The notes beneath the pieces are model-generated. The model was not told the DNA's origin and did no database searches. It was given only the letters and a program-made list of their open reading frames with translations. A DNA stretch of 64,000 nucleotides, taken from positions 3,746,315 through 3,810,314 of the forward strand of contig NC_015510.1 in NCBI RefSeq assembly GCF_000212735.1. The letters run 5' to 3'. The translations under genes and the position numbers were made by a program. The stretch is from Haliscomenobacter hydrossis DSM 1100. GTDB lineage: Bacteria > Bacteroidota > Bacteroidia > Chitinophagales > Saprospiraceae. The first letter of the stretch is position 1; the number at the start of each line of letters is the position of its first letter. Positions 42,025 to 59,387 of this stretch are shown here, piece by piece.

Positions 42025-43278
42025 ATGAAACGCAATTTATTCCTGTTCTCGCTGTGGTGTACCATGAGCCTCAGCCTTTTTCAATGTGAAGGCAACGACG
42101 AACCAAGTCCAAACAGTAGTACCCTCAGCTGTGCCCAAAATCCCGATGTATGCAAACTCGGGGAAGCCACGAACCAATTTGGGTTCGATATCTTTAAAAA
42201 ACTGAATGCAGACAAACCAGACGATAACCTGTTCATCTCTCCGCTGAGCATCAGTTCTGCTTTGAGCATGACCCTCAACGGTGCCAATGGCAAAACCAAA
42301 GAAGAAATGCTCAAGGTGTTGGGTGCCGGCAAAATTAGTCTGGATGAACTCAATCAGTCCTACCAAACCTTGTTAAAGGAATTGCCTAACCTAGACCCCA
42401 AGGTCAAAGTTGACATTGCCAATTCCATCTGGTACCGCCAGGGCTTTGCCGTAAACCCGGCATTTTTGAATACCAATACGACTTATTACAACAGTGAAGT
42501 GCGGCCCCTTGACTTCAGCAAACCAGATGCAAAAGACATCATCAACAAATGGGTGAGTGACAAAACCAATAAGCTTATCCCTAGCATCATTGATCAAATT
42601 CAGGACAATTCGGTGATGTTTTTGATCAACGCCATTTATTTCAAAGGAACCTGGCGCAGACAATTTGACACCAAAAAAACCTATGACGGCGATTTTACCA
42701 CCGAAAAAAATGTCCAAGTGCCGGTGAAAATGATGTCATATGGTAATAGTTTGGTGAAATTGTCTTATTTTAGCAATGATAAATTGCATGCGGTTAAACT
42801 TCCTTATGCGGATTCGGTCTATTCCATGACCGTAATTCTCCCCAAGGAAGGATTTGCGGTGAAAGACATTTTACCGGAGCTGACACTAACCAATTGGAAT
42901 TCCTGGAATAAAGCCTATTCGGCTGAAGAGATATTTTTTGCCCTACCAAAATTCAGCTTGCGTTATGAAAACAGCTTAAATGCCAGTTTAGAAGCATTGG
43001 GTATGCCTACTGCTTTTATCCCCAGTCAGGCTGATTTTTCTGGCATTGCTACTGGACAGGAATTGTCTATTTCCAATGTTAAGCACAAAGCATTCATTGA
43101 AGTAGACGAGGCGGGAACCAAGGCAGCAGCGGCTACATCTGTTGAAATTGTAGTGACTTCTGTTCCCAATAATCCACAGTTCATTGTAAATCGTCCGTTT
43201 ATCTTTGTCATCAGTGAGAGCCGTACCAATCAGGCCATCTTTATTGGCAAAATGATGAATCCGACTAGCGACAAATAG
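42025..43278 (+). CDS. Lipoprotein serpin (serine protease inhibitor family)
   Basis: 417 residues. A lipoprotein signal (MKRNLFLFSLWCTMSLSLFQ with Cys21 in the lipobox) anchors the protein to a membrane, then a Ser/Pro linker. The serpin fold follows: NLFISPLSISSALSMTLNGA, FLINAIYFKGTW, and at the C-terminus the hinge EAGTKAAAATSVE near 360-375 with the small residues needed for loop insertion, then FIVNRPFIFVISE. By alignment the reactive bond would be Thr-Ser in VVTSVP, tentatively. An inhibitory serpin could protect against proteases from prey or from the cell's own surface. Has its own terminator. Confidence 0.92.
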   Translation: MKRNLFLFSLWCTMSLSLFQCEGNDEPSPNSSTLSCAQNPDVCKLGEATNQFGFDIFKKLNADKPDDNLFISPLSISSALSMTLNGANGKTKEEMLKVLGAGKISLDELNQSYQTLLKELPNLDPKVKVDIANSIWYRQGFAVNPAFLNTNTTYYNSEVRPLDFSKPDAKDIINKWVSDKTNKLIPSIIDQIQDNSVMFLINAIYFKGTWRRQFDTKKTYDGDFTTEKNVQVPVKMMSYGNSLVKLSYFSNDKLHAVKLPYADSVYSMTVILPKEGFAVKDILPELTLTNWNSWNKAYSAEEIFFALPKFSLRYENSLNASLEALGMPTAFIPSQADFSGIATGQELSISNVKHKAFIEVDEAGTKAAAATSVEIVVTSVPNNPQFIVNRPFIFVISESRTNQAIFIGKMMNPTSDK

Positions 43279-46959: not shown

Positions 46960-46998
46960 GCCCTGGAGTTTTGTTACCAACTCAAAAAATTGCAACCC

Positions 46999-48315
46999 AT
47001 GCTTTTGTACAGCACCAAAAATAAAAACAACCAAGCCAGCTTGCAGGAGGCAGTCATGAAAGGATTGCCTGATGACAATGGTTTGTACATGCCTGAACAC
47101 ATCCCTCAACTCGATCCAGAATTTATTCAAAACCTGGCCAATTATAGTTTTTTGGACATTGCTCATGAGGTTTGTACTACCTTATTTGGAGACACCATTC
47201 CCGAAGCTGACCTGCGGATCATCCTGGAAAACTCCATGGATTTCCCGGCACCAGTCGTCAAACTCGATGACCAGAAGTATGTTCTGGAACTTTTCCATGG
47301 TCCTTCTTTGGCTTTTAAAGATTTTGGTGCCCGGTTTATGGCTCAATTGATGAGCTATTTTAACCGTGGAGAAACGAAAGAACTCACCATTTTGGTGGCT
47401 ACTTCAGGTGATACGGGTGGAGCAGTTGCCGCAGGATTTTACAAAACCCCGGGCATTCGGGTGATCATCCTCTACCCTAGCGGCAAAGTCAGCATGCTGC
47501 AAGAAAAACAATTGACCACCCTGGGACACAACATCAGTGCGCTGGAGATCAACGGTACTTTTGACGATTGCCAGGCTATGGTCAAACAGGCGTTTTTGGA
47601 CTCGGAGCTCACCCAGAAAATCCGGCTTAGTTCCGCAAACTCCATCAACATTGCTCGCCTGATTCCCCAATCTTTTTATTATTTCGAAGCTTATAAACAA
47701 CTGCCTCAATCGGGTGATCCAATCGTTTTTTGTGTACCCAGCGGCAATTTCGGAAATTTAACCGCGGGGCTTTTGGCAGCTAAAATGGGTTTACCAGTAC
47801 ACCGTTTTATCGCCGCAACCAATGCCAATGATGTAGTGCCTGTTTATATTTCCGACGGAACTTATCAGCCTCGCCCTTCATTACGTACACTTTCCAATGC
47901 CATGGATGTAGGAAATCCATCCAATTTTGCCCGTATGCTCGATCTTTATTTGGGTACAGATGAACGTTCCACGTGGAACAATATCAAAAACATGGTGAGT
48001 GGCTATGCTTTTGACGATGCGGAAACAGCTAAAGTTATGCAATTGGTAGATCAAAAGTACCAGTACACTTTGGATCCACATGGAGCAGTGGGTTATTTGG
48101 CGTTGGATGCATATCAACAAGAACACCCGAATACCCGGGGCATTATTTTAGAAACCGCGCATCCAGCCAAGTTTATTGATGATGTAGAAGAGATACTGGG
48201 ACATAAGATTGAGATCCCGGAACGATTGGCCGAGTTGGCAGATCGGGAGAAAAAGGCCGATTATTTGGAGGCAGAATATGGGAAATTGAAGGCGTGGTTG
48301 CTGGAGCATAGCTAG
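46999..48315 (+). CDS. thrC: Threonine synthase
   Basis: 438 residues from the ATG at 46999 (a TTG three codons earlier is possible). PLP enzyme that makes threonine from phosphohomoserine. Seen: GPSLAFKDFGARFMAQ with the PLP-binding Lys near residue 110, VATSGDTGGAVAAGF, CVPSGNFGNLTAG and ETAHPAKF at the end. Complete length. The third gene of the operon; it contains a parS-like 16-mer in its coding sequence (47965-47980) and ends just before another one inside a terminator palindrome. Confidence 0.96.
   Translation: MLLYSTKNKNNQASLQEAVMKGLPDDNGLYMPEHIPQLDPEFIQNLANYSFLDIAHEVCTTLFGDTIPEADLRIILENSMDFPAPVVKLDDQKYVLELFHGPSLAFKDFGARFMAQLMSYFNRGETKELTILVATSGDTGGAVAAGFYKTPGIRVIILYPSGKVSMLQEKQLTTLGHNISALEINGTFDDCQAMVKQAFLDSELTQKIRLSSANSINIARLIPQSFYYFEAYKQLPQSGDPIVFCVPSGNFGNLTAGLLAAKMGLPVHRFIAATNANDVVPVYISDGTYQPRPSLRTLSNAMDVGNPSNFARMLDLYLGTDERSTWNNIKNMVSGYAFDDAETAKVMQLVDQKYQYTLDPHGAVGYLALDAYQQEHPNTRGIILETAHPAKFIDDVEEILGHKIEIPERLAELADREKKADYLEAEYGKLKAWLLEHS
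47965..47980. other. parS-like site 1 (inside thrC)
   Basis: CGTTCCACGTGGAACA: 14-base core GTTCCACGTGGAAC is a perfect palindrome identical to sites bound by ParB in several bacteria. Encodes ERSTWNN-type residues of thrC. Confidence 0.6.
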
Positions 48316-48330
48316 GAAAAGCTACTCGGA

Positions 48331-48375
48331 GATTAAAAAGGGCGATGTTCCACGTGGAACATCGCCCTTTTAATC
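48331..48375. terminator. Palindromic terminator after thrC with parS-like core
   Basis: GATTAAAAAGGGCGATGTTC and GAACATCGCCCTTTTAATC flank the centre CACGTG. Arms of about 22 bases with one extra A on the left. The T-run on the right makes it a terminator; the centre is parS-like site 2. Confidence 0.75.
48346..48361. other. parS-like site 2
   Basis: TGTTCCACGTGGAACA, a perfect 16-base palindrome that differs from the common parS consensus TGTTTCACGTGAAACA at two symmetric positions and is a known ParB-site variant. Confidence 0.65.
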
Positions 48376-48390
48376 TCTACACTTCTCCTT

Positions 48391-48452
48391 CCACGAATAA
48401 ATTCGTGGATTGGGGCGGTGGGTGGCCTCCCACGACTGAAGTCGTGGGTTGG
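48391..48452. repeat. REP-like unit, left of the RAYT gene
   Basis: Two hairpins, CCACGAATAAATTCGTGG (48391-48408) and CCCACGACTGAAGTCGTGGG (48429-48448), joined by GGGGCGGTGGGTGGCCT. It is an inverted copy of the unit at 49061-49125. Such paired hairpins are what RAYT transposases recognise. Confidence 0.85.
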
Positions 48453-48479
48453 CGATCGTGCCGGAAAAGGGTAGAAAAC

Positions 48480-48920
48480 CTAGTCCTTTTCGGGTTCGAG
48501 GCCGTGAAGTTCAAGAAGTCTTTTGTATTCTTCTTTGAACTTAATCTTCTCGTGATGCCTTTCCTGGTTAAGAATATAGTTCCTGACCTTGCCTACTAGT
48601 GACTGACTCACTGAAAAAGCACCATATCCTACCGACCACTTAAATTCGTGATCAAACCATTTTTCTTCATTGATGGTGTGTGCACTACCCCCTCTGCACT
48701 GTTTGATCAAATCAGCAATACACTTAGTGGAATCCAACTGCAAGAGGAGATGTACATGATCCGGCATTCCGTTGATCACCTCTACCCCACAACGCTTTTT
48801 CCAAAGTTCCTTACAGAGTAATTCGTACAGCCTCGCCTTGATTTCTGGGTTAATCCATTTCTTTCGATACTTTGTACAAAAGACTACATGCACCCAAATT
48901 CGTACTTTTGAATGAGCCAT
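48480..48920 (-). mobile_element. REP-associated tyrosine transposase (RAYT, TnpA_REP family)
   Basis: 146 residues. Single-strand HUH-type nuclease related to the IS200/IS605 TnpA. The HUH pair is His55/His57 in MPDHVHLLL, and the catalytic Tyr is Tyr115 in VRNYILNQE. The start IWVHVVFCTKYRKKWI and GVEVINGMPDHVH fit the family. Flanked by inverted REP-like units, as expected of a RAYT that mobilises or maintains them. Complete, so may be active. It lies between thrC and the M1 peptidase gene, with no other transposon genes. Confidence 0.9.
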
Positions 48921-49060
48921 AAAACAACATACTTAAAGTGAAAGAATAAAATCTGTACGAAAGGATGTGTATTTTCTATTACTTTGAAAGGCTAAAATGA
49001 TTACTCAAATTTATAAAACTTCCACTTATAATGCAACTAGCTCCTTCATATTTACATATT

Positions 49061-49125
49061 GCCAACCCACGACTTCAGTCGTGGGAGGCCACCCACCGCC
49101 CCAACCCATGAATTTATTCATGGGA
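49061..49125. repeat. REP-like unit, right of the RAYT gene
   Basis: CCCACGACTTCAGTCGTGGG (49066-49085) and CCCATGAATTTATTCATGGG (49105-49124) hairpins, inverse of the left unit with a few changes in the second hairpin. Linker GGCGGTGGGTGGCC matches on the opposite strand. Confidence 0.85.
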
Positions 49126-49158
49126 GAAAGATGCATAACAGAAAAACCCCAGCCCAAA

Positions 49159-49174
49159 TGTTCCACGTGGAACA
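49159..49174. other. parS-like site 3
   Basis: TGTTCCACGTGGAACA, identical to site 2, in the 390-base gap between the RAYT gene and the M1 peptidase gene. The rest of the gap holds the REP unit and presumably the M1 promoter. Confidence 0.65.
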
Positions 49175-49310
49175 TCCACCATCACACGCTCTGTTTCTGC
49201 TATCCATCTACTCACCCCACCCCTTCAGCGACATCCCTTTTATTTAACTCGCAGATTTTGTATCTTTAATTATCAATCAATCTCGTTTTATCAAAAAATC
49301 CATACACTCG

Positions 49311-51674
49311 ATGAAACCAAATACCATCAAAATCACACTACTGTTTTTGGCTTTGGCTTGGTGTATTGCTCCAATATCAGGGCAAGTAACACCCGACAAG
49401 AAGGACAAATTCAAACAGCTCCACGAGGAGTTGCCAACCCCCAACATGTACCGCAACGGGGCTGGTGGCCCGGGTCACCGCTACTACCAGCAACAAGCGG
49501 ACTATGTCATGAACATCAAGTTGGATGACAACAAGCAACAGATCTTCGGTGAAGAAACCGTCACTTACACGAATAACTCCCCGGATGTATTGGAGTACTT
49601 GTGGCTACAAATGGATCAAAACCATTTTGATGACGAATCCGATACCTATTCCACCCGACAAACTACCATGAGTGACCGAATGACGCTGCGCCAACTAGAT
49701 GGATTTACCCCTACTTTTGACGGTGGGTTCAAGGTCGATTTTGTGAAAGACGCCATGGGAAAAGACCTCAAACACACCGTGGTCAAAACCATGATGCGCA
49801 TTGATCCGGCCACACCCATTATGCCCGGAGCTAAGTTTTCCTTCAAAATCAAATGGTCGTTCAATATTGTTGACCGCCTAAAACTGGGTGGACGTTCGGG
49901 ATGTGAGTACTTCCCCGAAGACAAAAACTACCTGTATTCCATTGCCCAGTTCTTCCCACGCATGTGTGTATACGATGACATCGATGGCTGGCAGAACAAA
50001 CAGTTCCTGGGGGCTGGTGAATTCACCCTCGTTTTTGGCAACTACGACGTAAGTTTAACCGTACCTGACGACCATATCGTCGTAGCCACCGGTACACTCC
50101 AGAATACCAAAGACATTTTGAGCAAAGAACAATTAGCCCGTTTTGAAAAAGCCAAAACCGAATACAATACGCCCGTAGTTATTGTCACTGAAGAAGAGGC
50201 TCGTGAAAACGAAAAAGAAAAAGGGAAAGGGGAGAAGACCTGGCGTTTCAAAGCCGATAATGTACGCGACTTTGCTTTTGCCACTTCGCGGAAATTCATC
50301 TGGGATGCCATGTCGGTCAAACAATCCAATGGCAGCAATGTGCTCGCCATGTCCGCTTACCCGAAAGAAGCCAATCCACTATGGGGTCAATTCTCCACCA
50401 AAGCAATCGCCCACACCCTGAAATGGTATTCCCATTACACCTTTGATTATCCTTACCCTGTAGCCATTTCGGTCGAAGCCGCCAATGGCATGGAATATCC
50501 GATGATCTGCTTCAACAATGGACGGGTGGAAAAAGATGGCACTTATTCCGAAAGAACCAAGTATGGCACCATCGGGGTAATCATCCACGAAGTTGGCCAC
50601 AACTATTTCCCAATGATTGTCAACTCCGATGAGCGCCAATGGACCTGGATGGACGAAGGCTTAAACTCTTTCCTGCAATTCCTCGCCGAGCAACAGTGGG
50701 AACGGGATTACCCATCTCGACGTGGTTTCGCCCACAGCATCGTGCCCTATATGAAAATGGACAAAAAGATGCTGGAACCCATCATGACCAACTCCGAGCA
50801 GGTATCTCAATTGGGCAACAACGCCTACGGCAAACCTGCCGCTGCGCTGAATATTTTGCGTGAAACGGTGATGGGGCGCGAGTTGTTTGATCATGCGTTC
50901 AAAATGTACGCCACCCGCTGGAAATTCAAACACCCCGCTCCTTCTGATTTTTTCCGTACCATGGAAGATGCCAGTGGCATTGATTTGGATTGGTTTTGGA
51001 ATGGCTGGTTTTATTCTTGCGACAACGTAGACATCGCCCTCGAGGATGTAAAATGGTTCCGTCCGGATAGCAAAAATCCGGAGGTAGAAAAAACCCTCGC
51101 ACGCAAAGAGCAAGAAAAACAACCCCGCAACATCAGCAGCATCCGCAACGAAAAAGAGATTGCCAAAACCCAGGAAGATCTGGATCCCAGCATTCGGGAT
51201 TTTTACTACAGTTATGACCCGTTGCAAGTAACCATCCTGGACAAAGAGGACTACCAAAAATACATGAATGGTCTGGGTGAAGAAGAAAAGAAAACCCTGG
51301 CCGCCAATAAGAACTATTACGAAATCAAATTCACAAACAAGGGTGGCCTGGTCATGCCTCTGATCCTGCGGTTTGATTTTGCCGATGGTACATACAAAGA
51401 ATTCCGCATTCCGGCTGAAATCTGGCGCCTCAACAATGAAGAGGTAAACAAGGTATTTGTAACCGAAAAAGAGGCCGTACAAATCACCCTCGATCCATAC
51501 CTCGAAACCGCCGATGTGGACATGGAAAACAACTACTTCCCACCCAAGCCGCAAATGAGTCGCTTCGAGTTGTTCAAAGGAGCAGCAACCGGCCCTCGGC
51601 AGGTGATAGAAACCGGAGATAATCCGATGCAAAAAGCGAAGAAGATCCAGGCGAAAGGGAATGGGTCGAATTGA
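49311..51674 (+). CDS. Secreted M1-family metallopeptidase
   Basis: 787 residues with a signal peptide (about 1-24, ending PISGQ). The gluzincin zinc motif HEVGHN at residues 426-430 with Glu449 in WMDEGLNSF at the correct 18-residue spacing fits M1 aminopeptidases, and AANGMEYPM precedes it as the exopeptidase motif equivalent. Before the catalytic domain there is a beta-rich N-terminal domain. The C-terminal part (about 560-787) is rich in charged residues. No T9SS sorting domain was seen, so periplasmic or outer-membrane attachment is likely. Terminator follows. Confidence 0.9.
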   Translation: MKPNTIKITLLFLALAWCIAPISGQVTPDKKDKFKQLHEELPTPNMYRNGAGGPGHRYYQQQADYVMNIKLDDNKQQIFGEETVTYTNNSPDVLEYLWLQMDQNHFDDESDTYSTRQTTMSDRMTLRQLDGFTPTFDGGFKVDFVKDAMGKDLKHTVVKTMMRIDPATPIMPGAKFSFKIKWSFNIVDRLKLGGRSGCEYFPEDKNYLYSIAQFFPRMCVYDDIDGWQNKQFLGAGEFTLVFGNYDVSLTVPDDHIVVATGTLQNTKDILSKEQLARFEKAKTEYNTPVVIVTEEEARENEKEKGKGEKTWRFKADNVRDFAFATSRKFIWDAMSVKQSNGSNVLAMSAYPKEANPLWGQFSTKAIAHTLKWYSHYTFDYPYPVAISVEAANGMEYPMICFNNGRVEKDGTYSERTKYGTIGVIIHEVGHNYFPMIVNSDERQWTWMDEGLNSFLQFLAEQQWERDYPSRRGFAHSIVPYMKMDKKMLEPIMTNSEQVSQLGNNAYGKPAAALNILRETVMGRELFDHAFKMYATRWKFKHPAPSDFFRTMEDASGIDLDWFWNGWFYSCDNVDIALEDVKWFRPDSKNPEVEKTLARKEQEKQPRNISSIRNEKEIAKTQEDLDPSIRDFYYSYDPLQVTILDKEDYQKYMNGLGEEEKKTLAANKNYYEIKFTNKGGLVMPLILRFDFADGTYKEFRIPAEIWRLNNEEVNKVFVTEKEAVQITLDPYLETADVDMENNYFPPKPQMSRFELFKGAATGPRQVIETGDNPMQKAKKIQAKGNGSN

Positions 51675-51698
51675 TTTTTAAATATTAACTTTCATTGT

Positions 51699-51731
51699 AA
51701 AACCCGGGGACAGAGCATGTTTCCGGGTTTT
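51699..51731 (+). terminator. Terminator after the M1 peptidase gene
   Basis: AAAACCCGG (51699-51707) pairs with CCGGGTTTT (51723-51731); T-rich sequence follows. Confidence 0.75.
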
Positions 51732-51784
51732 AATTGTTATAAATTGTTTGGATTTTTCTATAGCAAAACACCTAATCCAAAAAC

Positions 51785-52297
51785 ATGAAAAGTTACCACT
51801 TCATCACCAATTGGGAACTTGAGGCCAGCTGTGCCGAAGTGTATAAAATTCTCAAAGCATCCGATGACCTGCCGCGCTGGTGGCCCAGCGTGTACCTAAA
51901 GGTCAAAACCATCGAAAATGGCGGGGAAAATGGCTTGGGGAAAACCATCGAACTCTACACCAAAGGCTGGTTGCCTTATACCTTGCGGTGGCAATCAAGG
52001 GTAACGGAGGTTCATCCTGATGATCATTCCGGTTTTTCTCTCGAAGCCTTGGGAGACTTTGTAGGTCGGGGCATCTGGACTTTTACTCAAGAAGGGCCAA
52101 TGTGTAAAATTGTCTACGATTGGAAAATTGAAGCCGAAAAGCCGCTACTCAAATATTTATCTTTCCTCTTCAAACCCATCTTCTCGGCCAATCACCATTG
52201 GGCCATGCGCAAAGGACTGGAAAGCCTGAAACTGGAATTGCGCAGGGTACGTGGTGAAAGCGATGTGCCTGCACCACCGCCGCCAACCTTTACTTAG
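51785..52297 (+). CDS. SRPBCC-superfamily (START-like) protein
   Basis: 170 residues, no signal. The fold signature is visible: NWELEASCAEVYKILKASDD and LPRWWPSVYLKVKTIENGGE at the start, GLGKTIELYTKGWLPYTL, then GRGIWTFTQEGPMCKIVYDW and a C-terminal helix MRKGLESLKLELRR. SRPBCC proteins bind hydrophobic ligands in a large cavity; many are polyketide-cyclase or Coq10-like. Ligand unknown. It lies between the M1 peptidase gene and mvaD. Confidence 0.85.
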   Translation: MKSYHFITNWELEASCAEVYKILKASDDLPRWWPSVYLKVKTIENGGENGLGKTIELYTKGWLPYTLRWQSRVTEVHPDDHSGFSLEALGDFVGRGIWTFTQEGPMCKIVYDWKIEAEKPLLKYLSFLFKPIFSANHHWAMRKGLESLKLELRRVRGESDVPAPPPPTFT

Positions 52298-52409
52298 GCG
52301 TAGTACGTAGAAGGGGTAAAACTATTTCTGTACCTTTATTTCCACAAATTTCAAGCATGCTGCGAACATGCTTGAAAAAAGGCTGTTCTATTTTCCTCAA
52401 CTTTCAATA

Positions 52410-53507
52410 ATGCAAAGCATTTACCACAACCCACTTTTGCGCATGGCTCCGGGCTATGCATTTTCGGGCGACATCCACTGGCAAAGTCCATCCAACATTG
52501 CCATTGTCAAATATTGGGGCAAACACGGTCAACAATTGCCCCGCAACCCCTCCATCAGTTTTACCCTGCAAGCGGCGTATACCGAAACGGAGTTCAGCTA
52601 TGTTCCACGTGAAACAACCGGGGAGGAAATATCCTTGGACTTTTTTTTCGAGGGCCAGGCTCAAGCAGCTTTTGCTCAAAAAATTGTCAAGTTTCTCAGC
52701 GCGTTGGCCGCCGAAGAAATTCTACCTTTTTTGACCCAGTTTCATTTAACCATCCATTCTGCCAATTCTTTTCCTCATTCTGCGGGCATTGCATCTTCGG
52801 CTTCCAGCATGAGTGCACTGGCCTTGTGCCTTTGCTCTATGGAACAAGAGTTATTTGGCACTTTGACCGATCCGGTCGAATTTTACCGCAAAGCTTCTTT
52901 TCTCGCCCGCCTGGGTTCAGGCAGTGCCTGTCGTTCATTGTATCCGGTGATGGGCTCCTGGGGCAAGATCGAAAAACAGGCCGGAAGCAGCGACCTTTGG
53001 GGCAGCCCTTGTGCTGATTGGGTACATCCTGTTTTTCATACTTTTCACGACGATATTTTGATTGTAAGCAAAGGTGAAAAAAGTGTCTCCAGTCGAGCCG
53101 GCCACCAGTTGATGGAAGGCAATCCCTACGCAAATGCACGTTACCAACAGGCCACCAACAATCTGGATCAATTGGTCGATATCCTCAAGTCGGGTGATGT
53201 ACATGCCTTCGGTCAAATTGCCGAACTCGAAGCGCTCACTTTGCACGCACTCATGATGAGTTCGCAGCCACCTTACCTGCTGATGAAACCCAACTCCCTG
53301 GCGATGATCGAAAAAATCCGCCAATACCGTCTGGATACCCAACAGCCCCTGTATTTCACCCTGGATGCCGGGCCCAACCTTCATTTGTTGTATCCCGCTG
53401 AAATTGCCGGGCATGTTGCGCCTTTTATCCAGGCCGAATTGCTGCCGCTTTGTGAAGAAGGTAAATACATTGCCGATCGGGTGGGCACCGGGCCTGTAAA
53501 ATTTTAA
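52410..53507 (+). CDS. mvaD: Diphosphomevalonate decarboxylase
   Basis: 365 residues from the ATG at 52410 (upstream in-frame codons are not conserved). GHMP-family enzyme that makes isopentenyl diphosphate from mevalonate diphosphate. Seen: SPSNIAIVKYWGKHGQQLPR and NPSISFTLQ (family signature), HSAGIASSASSMSALALC (ATP loop), SGSACRS and YFTLDAGPNLHLLYP near the end. So this bacterium uses the mevalonate route, as do several Saprospirales and Flavobacteriia, rather than the MEP route. Contains parS-like site 4. Confidence 0.95.
   Translation: MQSIYHNPLLRMAPGYAFSGDIHWQSPSNIAIVKYWGKHGQQLPRNPSISFTLQAAYTETEFSYVPRETTGEEISLDFFFEGQAQAAFAQKIVKFLSALAAEEILPFLTQFHLTIHSANSFPHSAGIASSASSMSALALCLCSMEQELFGTLTDPVEFYRKASFLARLGSGSACRSLYPVMGSWGKIEKQAGSSDLWGSPCADWVHPVFHTFHDDILIVSKGEKSVSSRAGHQLMEGNPYANARYQQATNNLDQLVDILKSGDVHAFGQIAELEALTLHALMMSSQPPYLLMKPNSLAMIEKIRQYRLDTQQPLYFTLDAGPNLHLLYPAEIAGHVAPFIQAELLPLCEEGKYIADRVGTGPVKF
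52601..52616. other. parS-like site 4 (inside mvaD)
   Basis: TGTTCCACGTGAAACA, one mismatch from the parS consensus TGTTTCACGTGAAACA; lies in mvaD coding sequence. Confidence 0.65.
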
Positions 53508-57040: not shown

Positions 57041-57703
57041 TTACCCCACCCGCTCCTGCAACTCCACCCCGTTATTCCGCACCGAATTCACCCGATCCGA
57101 AACCGGATACATGTCCAATATCCAGTCTCCCGGCGTGTGCAACATCTCCGCAATCGCCGCCGGATCCTTTTCTTCCAACCACAATTTTTGCGCTTCCCGA
57201 CCGGGTAAGACCAGCGGCATCCGATCGTGAATCGGAATCATTTCCTGATTCGGTCCGGTCGTAATGATCGAAAAACTGTGGATAACTTTGCCCTCTCCTT
57301 TCCAGGTATCCCAAATTCCGCCCATCACCAACAGTTCGCCGTTGCGGGGAAAGATGCGAAAAGGGGTCTTTTCTTTGCCTTCTTTTTTCCATTCATAAAA
57401 ACTATCCGCCAATACCAGGCAACGCCGTTGGCGAATGGAGGTACGAAACGAGGGTTTATCCATCACCGTTTCTGCACGGGCATTGATCAGTTTGCCCCCC
57501 ATCTTGGGGTCTTTGGACCAGGATGGAATCAAACCCCACTGGAAAAGTTGCAAAGCGCCCGGTCTCTGGTTGCTGATCACATAAGTCTGCTGGGTAGGGG
57601 CAATGTTGTAATTGTGGATCAATTCACCCTCAGCTTCCAGCGAAACACCCAATTCTGCCTCAATTTGGACCTTGGATTTGGAAAAAGAATACCGTCCACA
57701 CAT
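57041..57703 (-). CDS. SRAP-family protein (HMCES/YedK-like)
   Basis: 220 residues from the ATG at 57703, which makes Cys2 the second residue as required: the SRAP nucleophile forms a stable link to abasic sites in single-stranded DNA. Upstream in-frame codons would hide Cys2 and are rejected. Seen: MCGRYSFSKSK, NYNIAPTQQTYVI, WGLIPSWSKDP, INARAETV, RRCLVLADSFYEWK and the late IHDRMPLVL with conserved His. Role: protection of abasic sites at replication. One exact DnaA box lies within the coding sequence (57277-57285). Confidence 0.92.
   Translation of the reverse strand: MCGRYSFSKSKVQIEAELGVSLEAEGELIHNYNIAPTQQTYVISNQRPGALQLFQWGLIPSWSKDPKMGGKLINARAETVMDKPSFRTSIRQRRCLVLADSFYEWKKEGKEKTPFRIFPRNGELLVMGGIWDTWKGEGKVIHSFSIITTGPNQEMIPIHDRMPLVLPGREAQKLWLEEKDPAAIAEMLHTPGDWILDMYPVSDRVNSVRNNGVELQERVG
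57277..57285 (-). other. Exact DnaA box
   Basis: Reads TTATCCACA on the minus strand, within the SRAP gene. Member of the origin-like cluster. Confidence 0.6.
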
Positions 57704-58274
57704 AAAAAATACTTTAGTGGATTTGTGCAGTGGAAAACTAAATGCAAAAAAGTTATCCACAATGCCGTATTTTTATTTTACACTAATGGGCTGATTACAA
57801 TCCATTTAGCCCAATTAGTTATCCACCTCAATTTAGTGGAAAAGCAGCAGTTTAGCTAGTACTTATCAACACAGGTTAACATTAGGAGAGAAGGAATAAA
57901 GTTATCCCCATTCTCTACAGTGTTTTGCCAGGGCTTTCCCCTAAAAAAGAGCCCTCTACCAACGTCCAATGCACAGTGCCCAAAAATAAAGTTATTCCGT
58001 TAATGAAGATTAAAGCAGATGTGTATAAAAACGGGAGATGGGTGATTTCATTGGATTCCGGCTGTTGGTTTACGGTGTATAACTAGAACAAGTATCGTTA
58101 ACAATTATTTCATCTTGAGTTAACGAATATTTTTCTCCACATACCAACACTGCTGATGATGAACTTGATTTACTATTTAATTTAAATTCATTTTAATTAA
58201 TCATAGCAAACCTCGGCTGAAAAAATTTGCCAAAAAAAAGCGACTATATTTGTTCCAGTTAAAAGAAAAAAGCC
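57704..58274. other. Candidate replication origin (oriC) intergenic region
   Basis: 571 bases between the divergent SRAP and heme A synthase genes, with no open frame of note. DnaA-like boxes: exact TTATCCACA at 57753-57761; one-mismatch forms TTATCCACC 57819-57827, TTATCAACA 57863-57871, TTATCCCCA 57902-57910 and TTCTCCACA 58133-58141. Further features: inverted repeat TCGTTAAC 58095-58102 / GTTAACGA 58119-58126, and a strongly AT-rich tract at 58167-58206 that could melt first. Extra exact boxes lie in the flanking genes. A TATATTTG -7 element at 58245-58252 probably serves the heme A synthase gene. Location beside DNA-repair gene SRAP and close to parS-like sites supports, but does not prove, an origin. 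Confidence 0.6.
57753..57761 (+). other. Exact DnaA box
   Basis: TTATCCACA in the candidate origin region, 50 bases upstream of the SRAP start codon on its strand. Confidence 0.65.
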
Positions 58275-59363
58275 ATGCAAACTGTTTCAGCTTTGCCAAA
58301 ATCAATTGGTTCGTCGTATCCCAAAGCCATTCAAATCTGGCTGTTCATTGGGGTTTTTATGGTGTTTATGCAAGTAGTGATTGGCGGTGTAACCCGCTTG
58401 ACTGGCTCGGGATTGTCGATCACCAAATGGGAAATTGTCACGGGTACGCTGCCGCCGCTCAATGCTGCACAATGGAACGAGGAATTTGACGCGTACAAAG
58501 CCACACCGCAATACCAAAAAATTAACGAAGGGATGAGCATGTCAGCATTCAAGTTCATCTACTTTTGGGAATATTTCCACCGGCTCTGGGCTCGCTCCAT
58601 GGGTTTTGTCTTTTTGATTCCCTTTTTGTTTTTTTACTTCAAAGGTTGGATCGACCAACCACTTTTGCGCAGATTAGGCGTAGTTGTGCTCTTGGCCGCT
58701 TTGGCTGCATCCTTTGGTTGGATCATGGTAGCCAGTGGATTAGTGAATCGCCCCTGGGTAAATGCCTACAAGTTAACTTTACATTTGTCCATCGCATTGG
58801 CCGTTTACAGCACCTTATTTTGGACCTGGCTGACAACTTTTGCACATTATCCACAAGTTATCCACAGTCCTTTGTTAAAAAAGTGGGCCTTGTGGATAGC
58901 CATTTTGCTGGCAGTACAAATTGTATTAGGAGGCATTATGTCGGGTATGAAAGCTGGACTTTTTTACCCCACATGGCCTCAATTGAACGGGGAATGGATA
59001 CCTTCGGTGGTGTTGAAAGGCAGTGAATGGAACTCACTCAATTTCATCCATTACGACCGTGGACCCTTCATGGCTGCCCTGGTGCAACTCATGCACAGAA
59101 CACTAGCTTATGTCCTCACAATCATTGTTTTGTGGTATTTTTACAAAGGTGTGACAAGTGGAGCCAAAGGGCCTTTTCGCCAGGCATTACCTTTGCTTCC
59201 TGTAATGATATTTATACAGGTTTTGTTGGGTGTTTTTACCCTCTTGGGGAGCAAAGGAACCATCCCTGTAGGCCTGGGGGTTTTTCACCAGGCAGGGGCT
59301 TTATTGTTACTTTCCATCGTGCTCTACCTCAATTATCAACTGCTCAGAAAGCCGATAAAGTGA
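58275..59363 (+). CDS. ctaA: Heme A synthase, COX15/CtaA family
   Basis: 362 residues with about eight membrane spans. Converts heme O to heme A for cytochrome aa3-type oxidases. The N-terminal VIGGVTRLTGSGLSITKWEI motif, PQYQKINEGMSMSAFKFIYF, and the heme-ligand block YFWEYFHRLWARSMG are typical of the long (COX15) type lacking the extracellular Cys pair. MHRTLAYVLTIIVLW and VGLGVFHQAGALLLL are later conserved blocks with His. The gene contains two exact DnaA boxes and one near-box, which may be coincidence of coding or part of the origin. Confidence 0.93.
   Translation: MQTVSALPKSIGSSYPKAIQIWLFIGVFMVFMQVVIGGVTRLTGSGLSITKWEIVTGTLPPLNAAQWNEEFDAYKATPQYQKINEGMSMSAFKFIYFWEYFHRLWARSMGFVFLIPFLFFYFKGWIDQPLLRRLGVVVLLAALAASFGWIMVASGLVNRPWVNAYKLTLHLSIALAVYSTLFWTWLTTFAHYPQVIHSPLLKKWALWIAILLAVQIVLGGIMSGMKAGLFYPTWPQLNGEWIPSVVLKGSEWNSLNFIHYDRGPFMAALVQLMHRTLAYVLTIIVLWYFYKGVTSGAKGPFRQALPLLPVMIFIQVLLGVFTLLGSKGTIPVGLGVFHQAGALLLLSIVLYLNYQLLRKPIK
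58847..58866 (+). other. Tandem pair of exact DnaA boxes
   Basis: TTATCCACA at 58847-58855 and again at 58858-58866, two bases apart, followed by a one-mismatch reverse box at 58891-58899. They lie inside the heme A synthase gene. Confidence 0.65.
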
Positions 59364-59378
59364 AAATGTTAATAACTT

Positions 59379-59387
59379 TGTGGATAA
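59379..59387 (-). other. Exact DnaA box
   Basis: TGTGGATAA on the plus strand, in the 52-base gap between the heme A synthase gene and aat. Confidence 0.6.

Follow-up and report, generated by a model that had tools for sequence, protein, structure and literature searches.

A cluster of probable parS sites in and around thrC near the likely replication origin of Haliscomenobacter hydrossis

Four 16-bp palindromes resembling parS, the centromere bound by the partition protein ParB, lie in and around thrC, the threonine synthase gene, in a 64,000-nucleotide stretch of the chromosome of Haliscomenobacter hydrossis DSM 1100 (contig NC_015510.1, positions 3,746,315 to 3,810,314; hereafter the window, in whose coordinates features are given). 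Is this segment a chromosomal centromere, and what are such sites doing within and directly after a biosynthetic gene? We regard it as very likely, on sequence comparison, that the palindromes are chromosomal parS sites for the single ParB of this genome near its likely origin and that the site within thrC is under selection as DNA; the site in the hairpin after thrC is probably linked in part to termination.

Four palindromes, one ParB and a likely origin

Direct inspection of the window confirmed the four 16-mers reported by the first-pass annotation, and the gene calls agree with its placement of them in thrC, after thrC, near a RAYT gene and in mvaD. Site 1 (47965..47980, CGTTCCACGTGGAACA) is inside thrC and is read in frame as CGT TCC ACG TGG AAC A (Arg-Ser-Thr-Trp-Asn). 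Sites 2 and 3 (48346..48361 and 49159..49174) are the same perfect palindrome, TGTTCCACGTGGAACA, the former at the apex of a hairpin after thrC and the latter in the interval that separates the RAYT gene from an M1 peptidase gene. Site 4 (52601..52616, TGTTCCACGTGAAACA) is inside mvaD, identified by Pfam as mevalonate diphosphate decarboxylase (52368..53507, plus strand), where it codes for Val-Pro-Arg-Glu-Thr. No strand is assigned to any of the four, and all are 16-bp palindromes close to the parS consensus.

These sites stand alone in the genome. Within the window only the four match TGTTCCACGTGGAACA at up to three mismatches (0.39 expected; none of 100 shuffles reached four). The genome (8,771,651 bases in 4 contigs, with a chromosome of 8,371,686 bases) was searched with TGTTYCACGTGRAACA, using the reversed pattern as the control. 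At no more than one mismatch only the four sites were returned, all inside 4.7 kb, and the control gave one match; the motif is therefore few and clustered, and the concern that it might be common and spread over the chromosome is not borne out. Exactly two mismatches were found at six other, scattered places among the matches listed. At up to three mismatches there are 95 matches compared with 162 for the control, and because the motif is here rarer than its own reversal we treat the weaker matches as background. By our own arithmetic, chance would supply approximately 0.008 exact matches per genome; three are observed, in 4.3 kb. An Rfam scan of the window gave no matches.

The existence of parAB genes elsewhere in the genome, a corollary of the centromere proposal, is also seen: one parA-parB operon lies on the chromosome at ~1.01 Mb. 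Its parB is the only ParB_N gene of the genome (~1.0127 Mb; product of 310 aa), and a gene for a 268-aa ParA adjoins it on the same strand. Residues 54-257 of the ParB align with solved chromosomal ParB/Noc proteins (7bnk, E 7e-50; 6t1f, E 9e-43), and the GERRxRA stretch is retained, as GERRFRA here and GERRWRA in 7bnk. The genome thus encodes ParA together with a ParB of the chromosomal type.

The annotation had also set the sites near a cluster of DnaA boxes, and this proximity holds. A search for TTATCCACA with at most one mismatch finds 12 boxes, five of them exact, at 57277..59387, ~5-11 kb from the sites. The cluster extends across the SRAP gene (57041..57760, minus strand), the SRAP-ctaA intergenic region and ctaA (COX15-CtaA; 58275..59363, plus strand), and both genes are recurrent neighbors of such clusters. 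Seven boxes fall in 600 bp at position 57613, a density unmatched in any of 80 other 20-kb stretches (best of each, 1-3), and the only tandem pair of exact boxes in the genome (gap of no more than 30 bases) is found at 58847-58866 (C1:3805161). Clusters recur beside thrC and parS in relatives: at least four boxes in 600 bp occur in 17 of 80 thrC loci, many of which are too short to reveal a cluster, at 2.3-9.2 kb from the thrC end and downstream in 13. Around ctaA (plus or minus 700 bases), the 15 loci of relatives that hold this gene have 3.45 boxes per kb versus 0.38 elsewhere. Several boxes fall within the ctaA reading frame or at its end, both in the window (58847-58899) and in relatives (loci L038, L048, L098 and L099), and for this reason ctaA may carry part of the origin. 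The cluster near the sites is likely the origin region.

Since the sites are unique and clustered, with one parAB operon in the genome and a DnaA-box cluster nearby, a chromosomal parS cluster near the origin is very likely, and the interpretation offered by the first-pass annotation is to this extent supported. Several observations weigh against it. The GC skew, sampled over 80 20-kb stretches and three 20-kb pieces taken from the window, cannot pin down the origin, being weak and without a sharp minimum: it is negative in every bin from 0.4 to 3.2 Mb, positive in every bin from 5.4 to 8.4 Mb and mixed between, and several bins have a third-position value that is close to zero or mixed. Its signs fit an origin anywhere between 3.2 and 5.4 Mb with the terminus around 0 Mb. 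The parAB operon is ~2.8 Mb from the sites, rather than near them, and dnaA is likewise distant, unlike the arrangement in many bacteria. The mvaD site is not conserved, the corresponding stretch carrying 6-13 mismatches in every one of the 30 relatives aligned.

Proximity of parAB to parS is common, not universal. In other Bacteroidia with both on one contig, parB and parS are 0.73 Mb (G051) and 0.88 Mb (G219) apart, and 2.5 Mb apart in G201, or ~0.8 Mb should the G201 contig be circular; five further genomes of this comparison have the two on different contigs and are uninformative. As the two are apart in three of three other Bacteroidia, the separation is not peculiar to H. hydrossis, and proximity is not required in this class. 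We rejected dnaA as a marker of the origin: the single dnaA lies where the record begins, near the opposite turn of the skew, the presumed terminus. In H. hydrossis dnaA (record start), parAB (~1.01 Mb) and the parS sites with the DnaA boxes (~3.80 Mb) are megabases from one another. A Hi-C study of gut bacteria, Bacteroidetes included, located origins by parS clusters and GC skew and reports that these do not always coincide with dnaA (PMC10197239). Conservation of site 4 was rejected as well, the site being private to H. hydrossis among the 30 relatives compared; a chance origin of so good a 16-mer so near the others is nonetheless unlikely. A third parS site at a similar distance is present also in L036 and L037, from the same-genus genomes G003 and G001. 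A locus of a further member of the genus, L038 (G002), is without the third site and without RAYT.

The site within thrC

The thrC gene (46990..48315, plus strand) encodes 441 aa counted from a TTG, with an ATG at 46999, and is identified by Pfam and by its match to PDB 1vb3 (E 2.6e-115). We collected a first sample of 80 thrC loci with six peptide patterns and aligned them with the gene of the window (81 rows); one of the six patterns overlaps the site stretch and could favor the site in this sample. At the codons of site 1, parS is exact in 15 of the 81 rows and carries one mismatch in 35 more (50 of 81 at no more than one), with two additional rows at two mismatches. Two further sites lie outside the alignment columns, in L087 (exact) and L113 (one core mismatch). 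The shared in-frame reading is NGT TYC ACG TGG AAC A--. In 13 rows the 16-mer is GGTTCCACGTGGAACA, the reverse complement of parS1/parS4 of Pseudomonas aeruginosa, for which binding in that organism is reported to be almost as good as for the perfect palindrome (PMC4368675).

The codon usage of this segment reveals what is being preserved. With as many as two mismatches allowed, 52 rows have the site. Codon 1 in these rows is GGT (17), TGT (16), CGT (10) or AGT (9), that is, Gly, Cys, Arg or Ser and always NGT; codon 2 is TCC (46), TTC (4), TAC (1) or TCT (1); codons 3 to 5 are ACG (52), TGG (52) and AAC (51, with one GAC); and the first base of codon 6 is A throughout, yielding Asn, Ile, Met, Ser, Lys or Thr. 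The third bases of codons 3 and 5 are invariant, and the mean third-position entropy over the five site codons is 0.03 bits, against a median of 1.65 over 198 conserved columns. These rows were chosen by their DNA and the tallies are hence circular; the fair counts are those from rows chosen by peptide. In the latter, Thr-Trp-Asn is spelled ACG TGG AAC in 52 of 52 rows (51 of those above and L087), compared with 17% ACG among the Thr codons and 39% AAC among the Asn codons elsewhere in the same genes.

A second sample came from a whole-protein search of 100 Saprospiraceae genomes, 83 of which gave thrC; it is not independent, as it shares species with the first. The peptide-chosen rows again read ACG TGG AAC, in 49 of 49. 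The site is inside thrC, at no more than one mismatch, in 44 of 83 genes (24 of the 30 best-scoring, 20 of the 53 others); 43 of these carry no out-of-frame site, and L300 adds one to its in-frame site. A parS follows thrC within 1.5 kb in 50 of 83, and one is inside or after the gene in 60. Occurrence within thrC falls with ThrC identity to the window protein, from 27 of 34 at 65% or above to 9 of 19 at 60-64%, 4 of 15 at 55-59% and 4 of 15 below 55%, and the site persists down to 44-46% (L305 and L307). On a tree computed from the ThrC proteins of the first sample with the site columns left out, which does not distinguish gain from loss, the distribution of the site (54 of 81 rows, up to two mismatches) requires 5 changes, as opposed to 22.8 with shuffled labels, which argues that the site is old and stable.

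Ordinary constraint on a protein would give the opposite picture: here the amino acids may change as long as parS survives, and silent changes that destroy parS hardly occur. These comparisons indicate that the thrC site is retained by selection on DNA, not on protein, in many Saprospiraceae lineages, and parS thereby appears to set part of the amino-acid sequence of the enzyme. The genes that do without the site limit this reading. No internal site is present in 27 of 81 and 39 of 83 thrC genes, and none is found inside or within 1.5 kb after thrC in 23 of 83; the placement in thrC is therefore dispensable. In a 17-row group that lacks the thrC site, 16 rows have at least two parS after the gene. 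The site stretch is gapped and variable against Escherichia coli ThrC. Of the 27 rows without the site, 17 have Trp in the column of the Trp, 9 have His and 1 has Lys, and the site may accordingly have formed around a Trp codon. In L113, L249 and L261 the core of the thrC site is changed to CACGGG, with Trp replaced by Gly in L113 and L249; these are perhaps decaying sites. In L079 and L090, four parS-like sites lie upstream of the thrC site, no more than 2 kb from it, and the stretch scanned after thrC contains none.

How far does the association with thrC reach? Exact parS and thrC are no more than 5 kb apart in 21 of the 26 Saprospiraceae genomes with both listed. This count leaves out G010, G013 and G035, which have exact parS and no thrC match in the whole-protein search, as well as G001 and G003, absent from the whole-protein draw, whose loci L025 and L024 show thrC beside parS. 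A thrC match within ~1.5 kb of parS was found in 0 of 14 loci of the order outside Saprospiraceae and in 0 of 30 from the class. The palindrome itself is present in 49 of 60 near relatives and, as an exact match, in 124 of 197 genomes of the class. Set side by side, these counts make the thrC link look like a trait of Saprospiraceae, and parS itself general. One distant member of Bacteroidia, a genome with 12 exact parS sites, carries seven parS sites in a 99-bp tandem array (L256, G089:C24, 1703-2324), the first copy of which lies, as judged by eye, in the last codons of a ybeY-like gene.

The hairpin after thrC

Site 2 forms the top of a 23-pair hairpin (48328..48378, no strand assigned) between the convergent thrC and RAYT genes. 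The fold has a free energy of -36.3 kcal/mol and a z of -8.75, and 0 of 200 shuffles were as good; a stable stem-loop thus stands past the stop codon of thrC. We compared loci in which a parS lies within 150 bp after the thrC stop, calling the stem extended when at least six further pairs, at least three of them G-C, continue it with no more than one mismatch. The first downstream parS is stem-extended in 20 of 64 loci, the window included (500 flank swaps: mean 0.77, maximum 4); extension is rarer among later sites (3 of 49) and absent from those inside thrC (0 of 52). Beyond the 16-mer the lower stems are mostly unlike one another between loci, yet they pair; because their sequences differ, it is the pairing and not the sequence that is kept. 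The extended loci often have an A-run before the stem and a T-run after it.

On this basis parS probably doubles as the apex of a terminator for thrC in some Saprospiraceae at least, which is the weakest step of our argument. The original assignment of site 2 to the thrC terminator holds as regards the hairpin after thrC and fails as regards a T-run directly after the stem. Three results count against termination: with a T-run defined as five T in six, the window has none after the stem, its TTTT being four T only and pairing into the stem; a terminator scan of the window did not flag the parS hairpin; and a T-run accompanies just 13 of the 20 extended stems. Intrinsic (Rho-independent) terminators consist of a stable stem with an A-run before it and a T-run after it. 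The hairpins described here resemble them in a stem just past the stop codon, in the convergent genes and, in many relatives, in the A- and T-runs; they differ in that the top eight stem pairs are the fixed parS palindrome and only the lower stem varies.

Alternative explanations and meaning

How else might the palindromes be accounted for? The alternative of most weight concerns the hairpin alone, which might be only an extended palindrome aiding ParB, or a DNA cruciform, with no role in termination. Extension of the ParB half-sites could itself produce longer palindromes, the hairpin was absent from the output of the terminator scan, and 7 of the 20 stem-extended loci, that of the window among them, are without a T-run. 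That widely differing stems still pair, often between an A-run and a T-run as in intrinsic terminators, argues for termination, and so does the concentration of extension at the first site after thrC (20/64) rather than at later sites (3/49) or inside the gene (0/52). We consider the absence of a termination role a serious possibility, if somewhat the less probable one. An explanation by the enzyme would hold that the thrC site is kept since Ser-Thr-Trp-Asn matters to threonine synthase, the match to parS being a by-product. The Trp found in 17 of 27 rows without the site may indeed predate it or matter to the enzyme. The remaining residues differ in loci without the site, however, and the segment is gapped and variable against the E. 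coli protein; where the site is present, the residues at codons 1 and 6 vary while NGT and the first A stay fixed, the third bases of codons 3 and 5 do not change even though conserved columns have a median of 1.65 bits, and the peptide-chosen rows agree throughout (52/52 and 49/49 ACG TGG AAC). An origin of the pattern in the needs of the enzyme is thus exceedingly improbable.

That the palindromes are operators of a regulator of the threonine operon, and not a centromere, would suit their frequent position in or next to thrC in Saprospiraceae (21/26 within 5 kb; 60/83 within 1.5 kb). It would not suit their position in and after the last gene of thrABC instead of at the promoter, the frequent presence of a DnaA-box cluster nearby, or the exact 16-mer in 124 of 197 genomes of the class, away from thr genes as it is elsewhere (thrC nearby in 0/14 and 0/30 loci); we hold the operator explanation to be very improbable. 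The notion of a mobile or REP-type repeat unrelated to ParB draws on the surroundings of sites 2 and 3, between which lie a RAYT gene and REP-like palindromes. These palindromes differ in sequence from the four 16-mers and occur at many places, and the 16-mers occur nowhere else, which leaves this notion with a negligible probability. The first-pass annotation, in weighing an unrelated repeat, had leaned on the mvaD copy; its doubt about the repeat stands, the adjacent REP-like repeat being a different sequence, and its argument from mvaD loses force, that copy being private to the species.

The RAYT-like transposase gene (Y1_Tnp; 48480..48920, minus strand) is flanked by inverted REP-like palindromes, and the whole occupies 48391-49125, between parS sites 2 and 3. 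With one mismatch allowed, the REP-like palindrome CCCACGACTNAAGTCGTGGG is matched 28 times in the forward and 33 times in the reverse orientation, in partly shared places, across the chromosome and plasmids. RAYT adjoins thrC also in L024, L025 and L037 of the same genus, and not in L023 or L038. A bacterial serpin gene (42025-43278; Pfam Serpin, E 2e-116) is next to thrABC, near the likely origin.

The reading that we prefer, a parS cluster near the likely origin, has close counterparts. In the P. aeruginosa study, parS2 and parS3 are perfect palindromes and the best-bound sites of that organism, and its four high-affinity sites lie less than 16 kb from oriC (PMC4368675). Sites 2 and 3 of H. 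hydrossis are identical to parS2/parS3; in both organisms four sites are clustered, and nine of the ten predicted P. aeruginosa sites are most likely in coding sequence (PMC4368675). The organisms differ in that P. aeruginosa has parAB ~7 kb from oriC and its ten sites spread wider, whereas H. hydrossis has parAB ~2.8 Mb from the sites and no fifth site at one mismatch or fewer; that account, in its available part, reports neither a family-wide fixed codon position nor a terminator hairpin (PMC4368675). In gut bacteria, Bacteroides included, parS clusters likewise mark the origin, dnaA not always being there; that study defined sites by up to two mismatches together with Hi-C, and its available part does not discuss their position within genes (PMC10197239). 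In our literature search we came across no description of parS within thrC or within a terminator. Clustering of parS beside a likely origin is ordinary; an in-frame site that shapes an enzyme across lineages, together with recurrent parS-topped hairpins, is uncommon.

By analogy with established ParABS biology, ParB dimers would load with CTP on each 16-bp palindrome and slide outward, covering the region from thrC to mvaD, and ParA would move the ParB-DNA complex so that the two new origins separate. One of the putative loading sites is held in the reading frame of thrC in many lineages, and a second, just past the gene, has been repeatedly built into longer hairpins. Whether the centromere is, in this sense, built into a metabolic operon, with parS dictating four to five residues of ThrC and also serving as the apex of the thrC terminator, is a question on which we remain a shade short of even confidence. 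If it is, ParB would load where RNA polymerase leaves, and the position of the centromere and thrC would be evolutionarily tied, next to oriC.

The presence of parS inside genes is already known. Here the same in-frame site can be traced through a family, its synonymous positions frozen and its amino acids free, which would be direct sequence evidence of a centromere constraining an enzyme, with two functions separable by synonymous recoding. The hairpin sites make a coupling of transcription termination and ParB loading testable. For Saprospiraceae, thrC-parS together with the DnaA-box cluster at ctaA and SRAP may mark the origin of replication, where dnaA, judging from H. hydrossis, would mislead.

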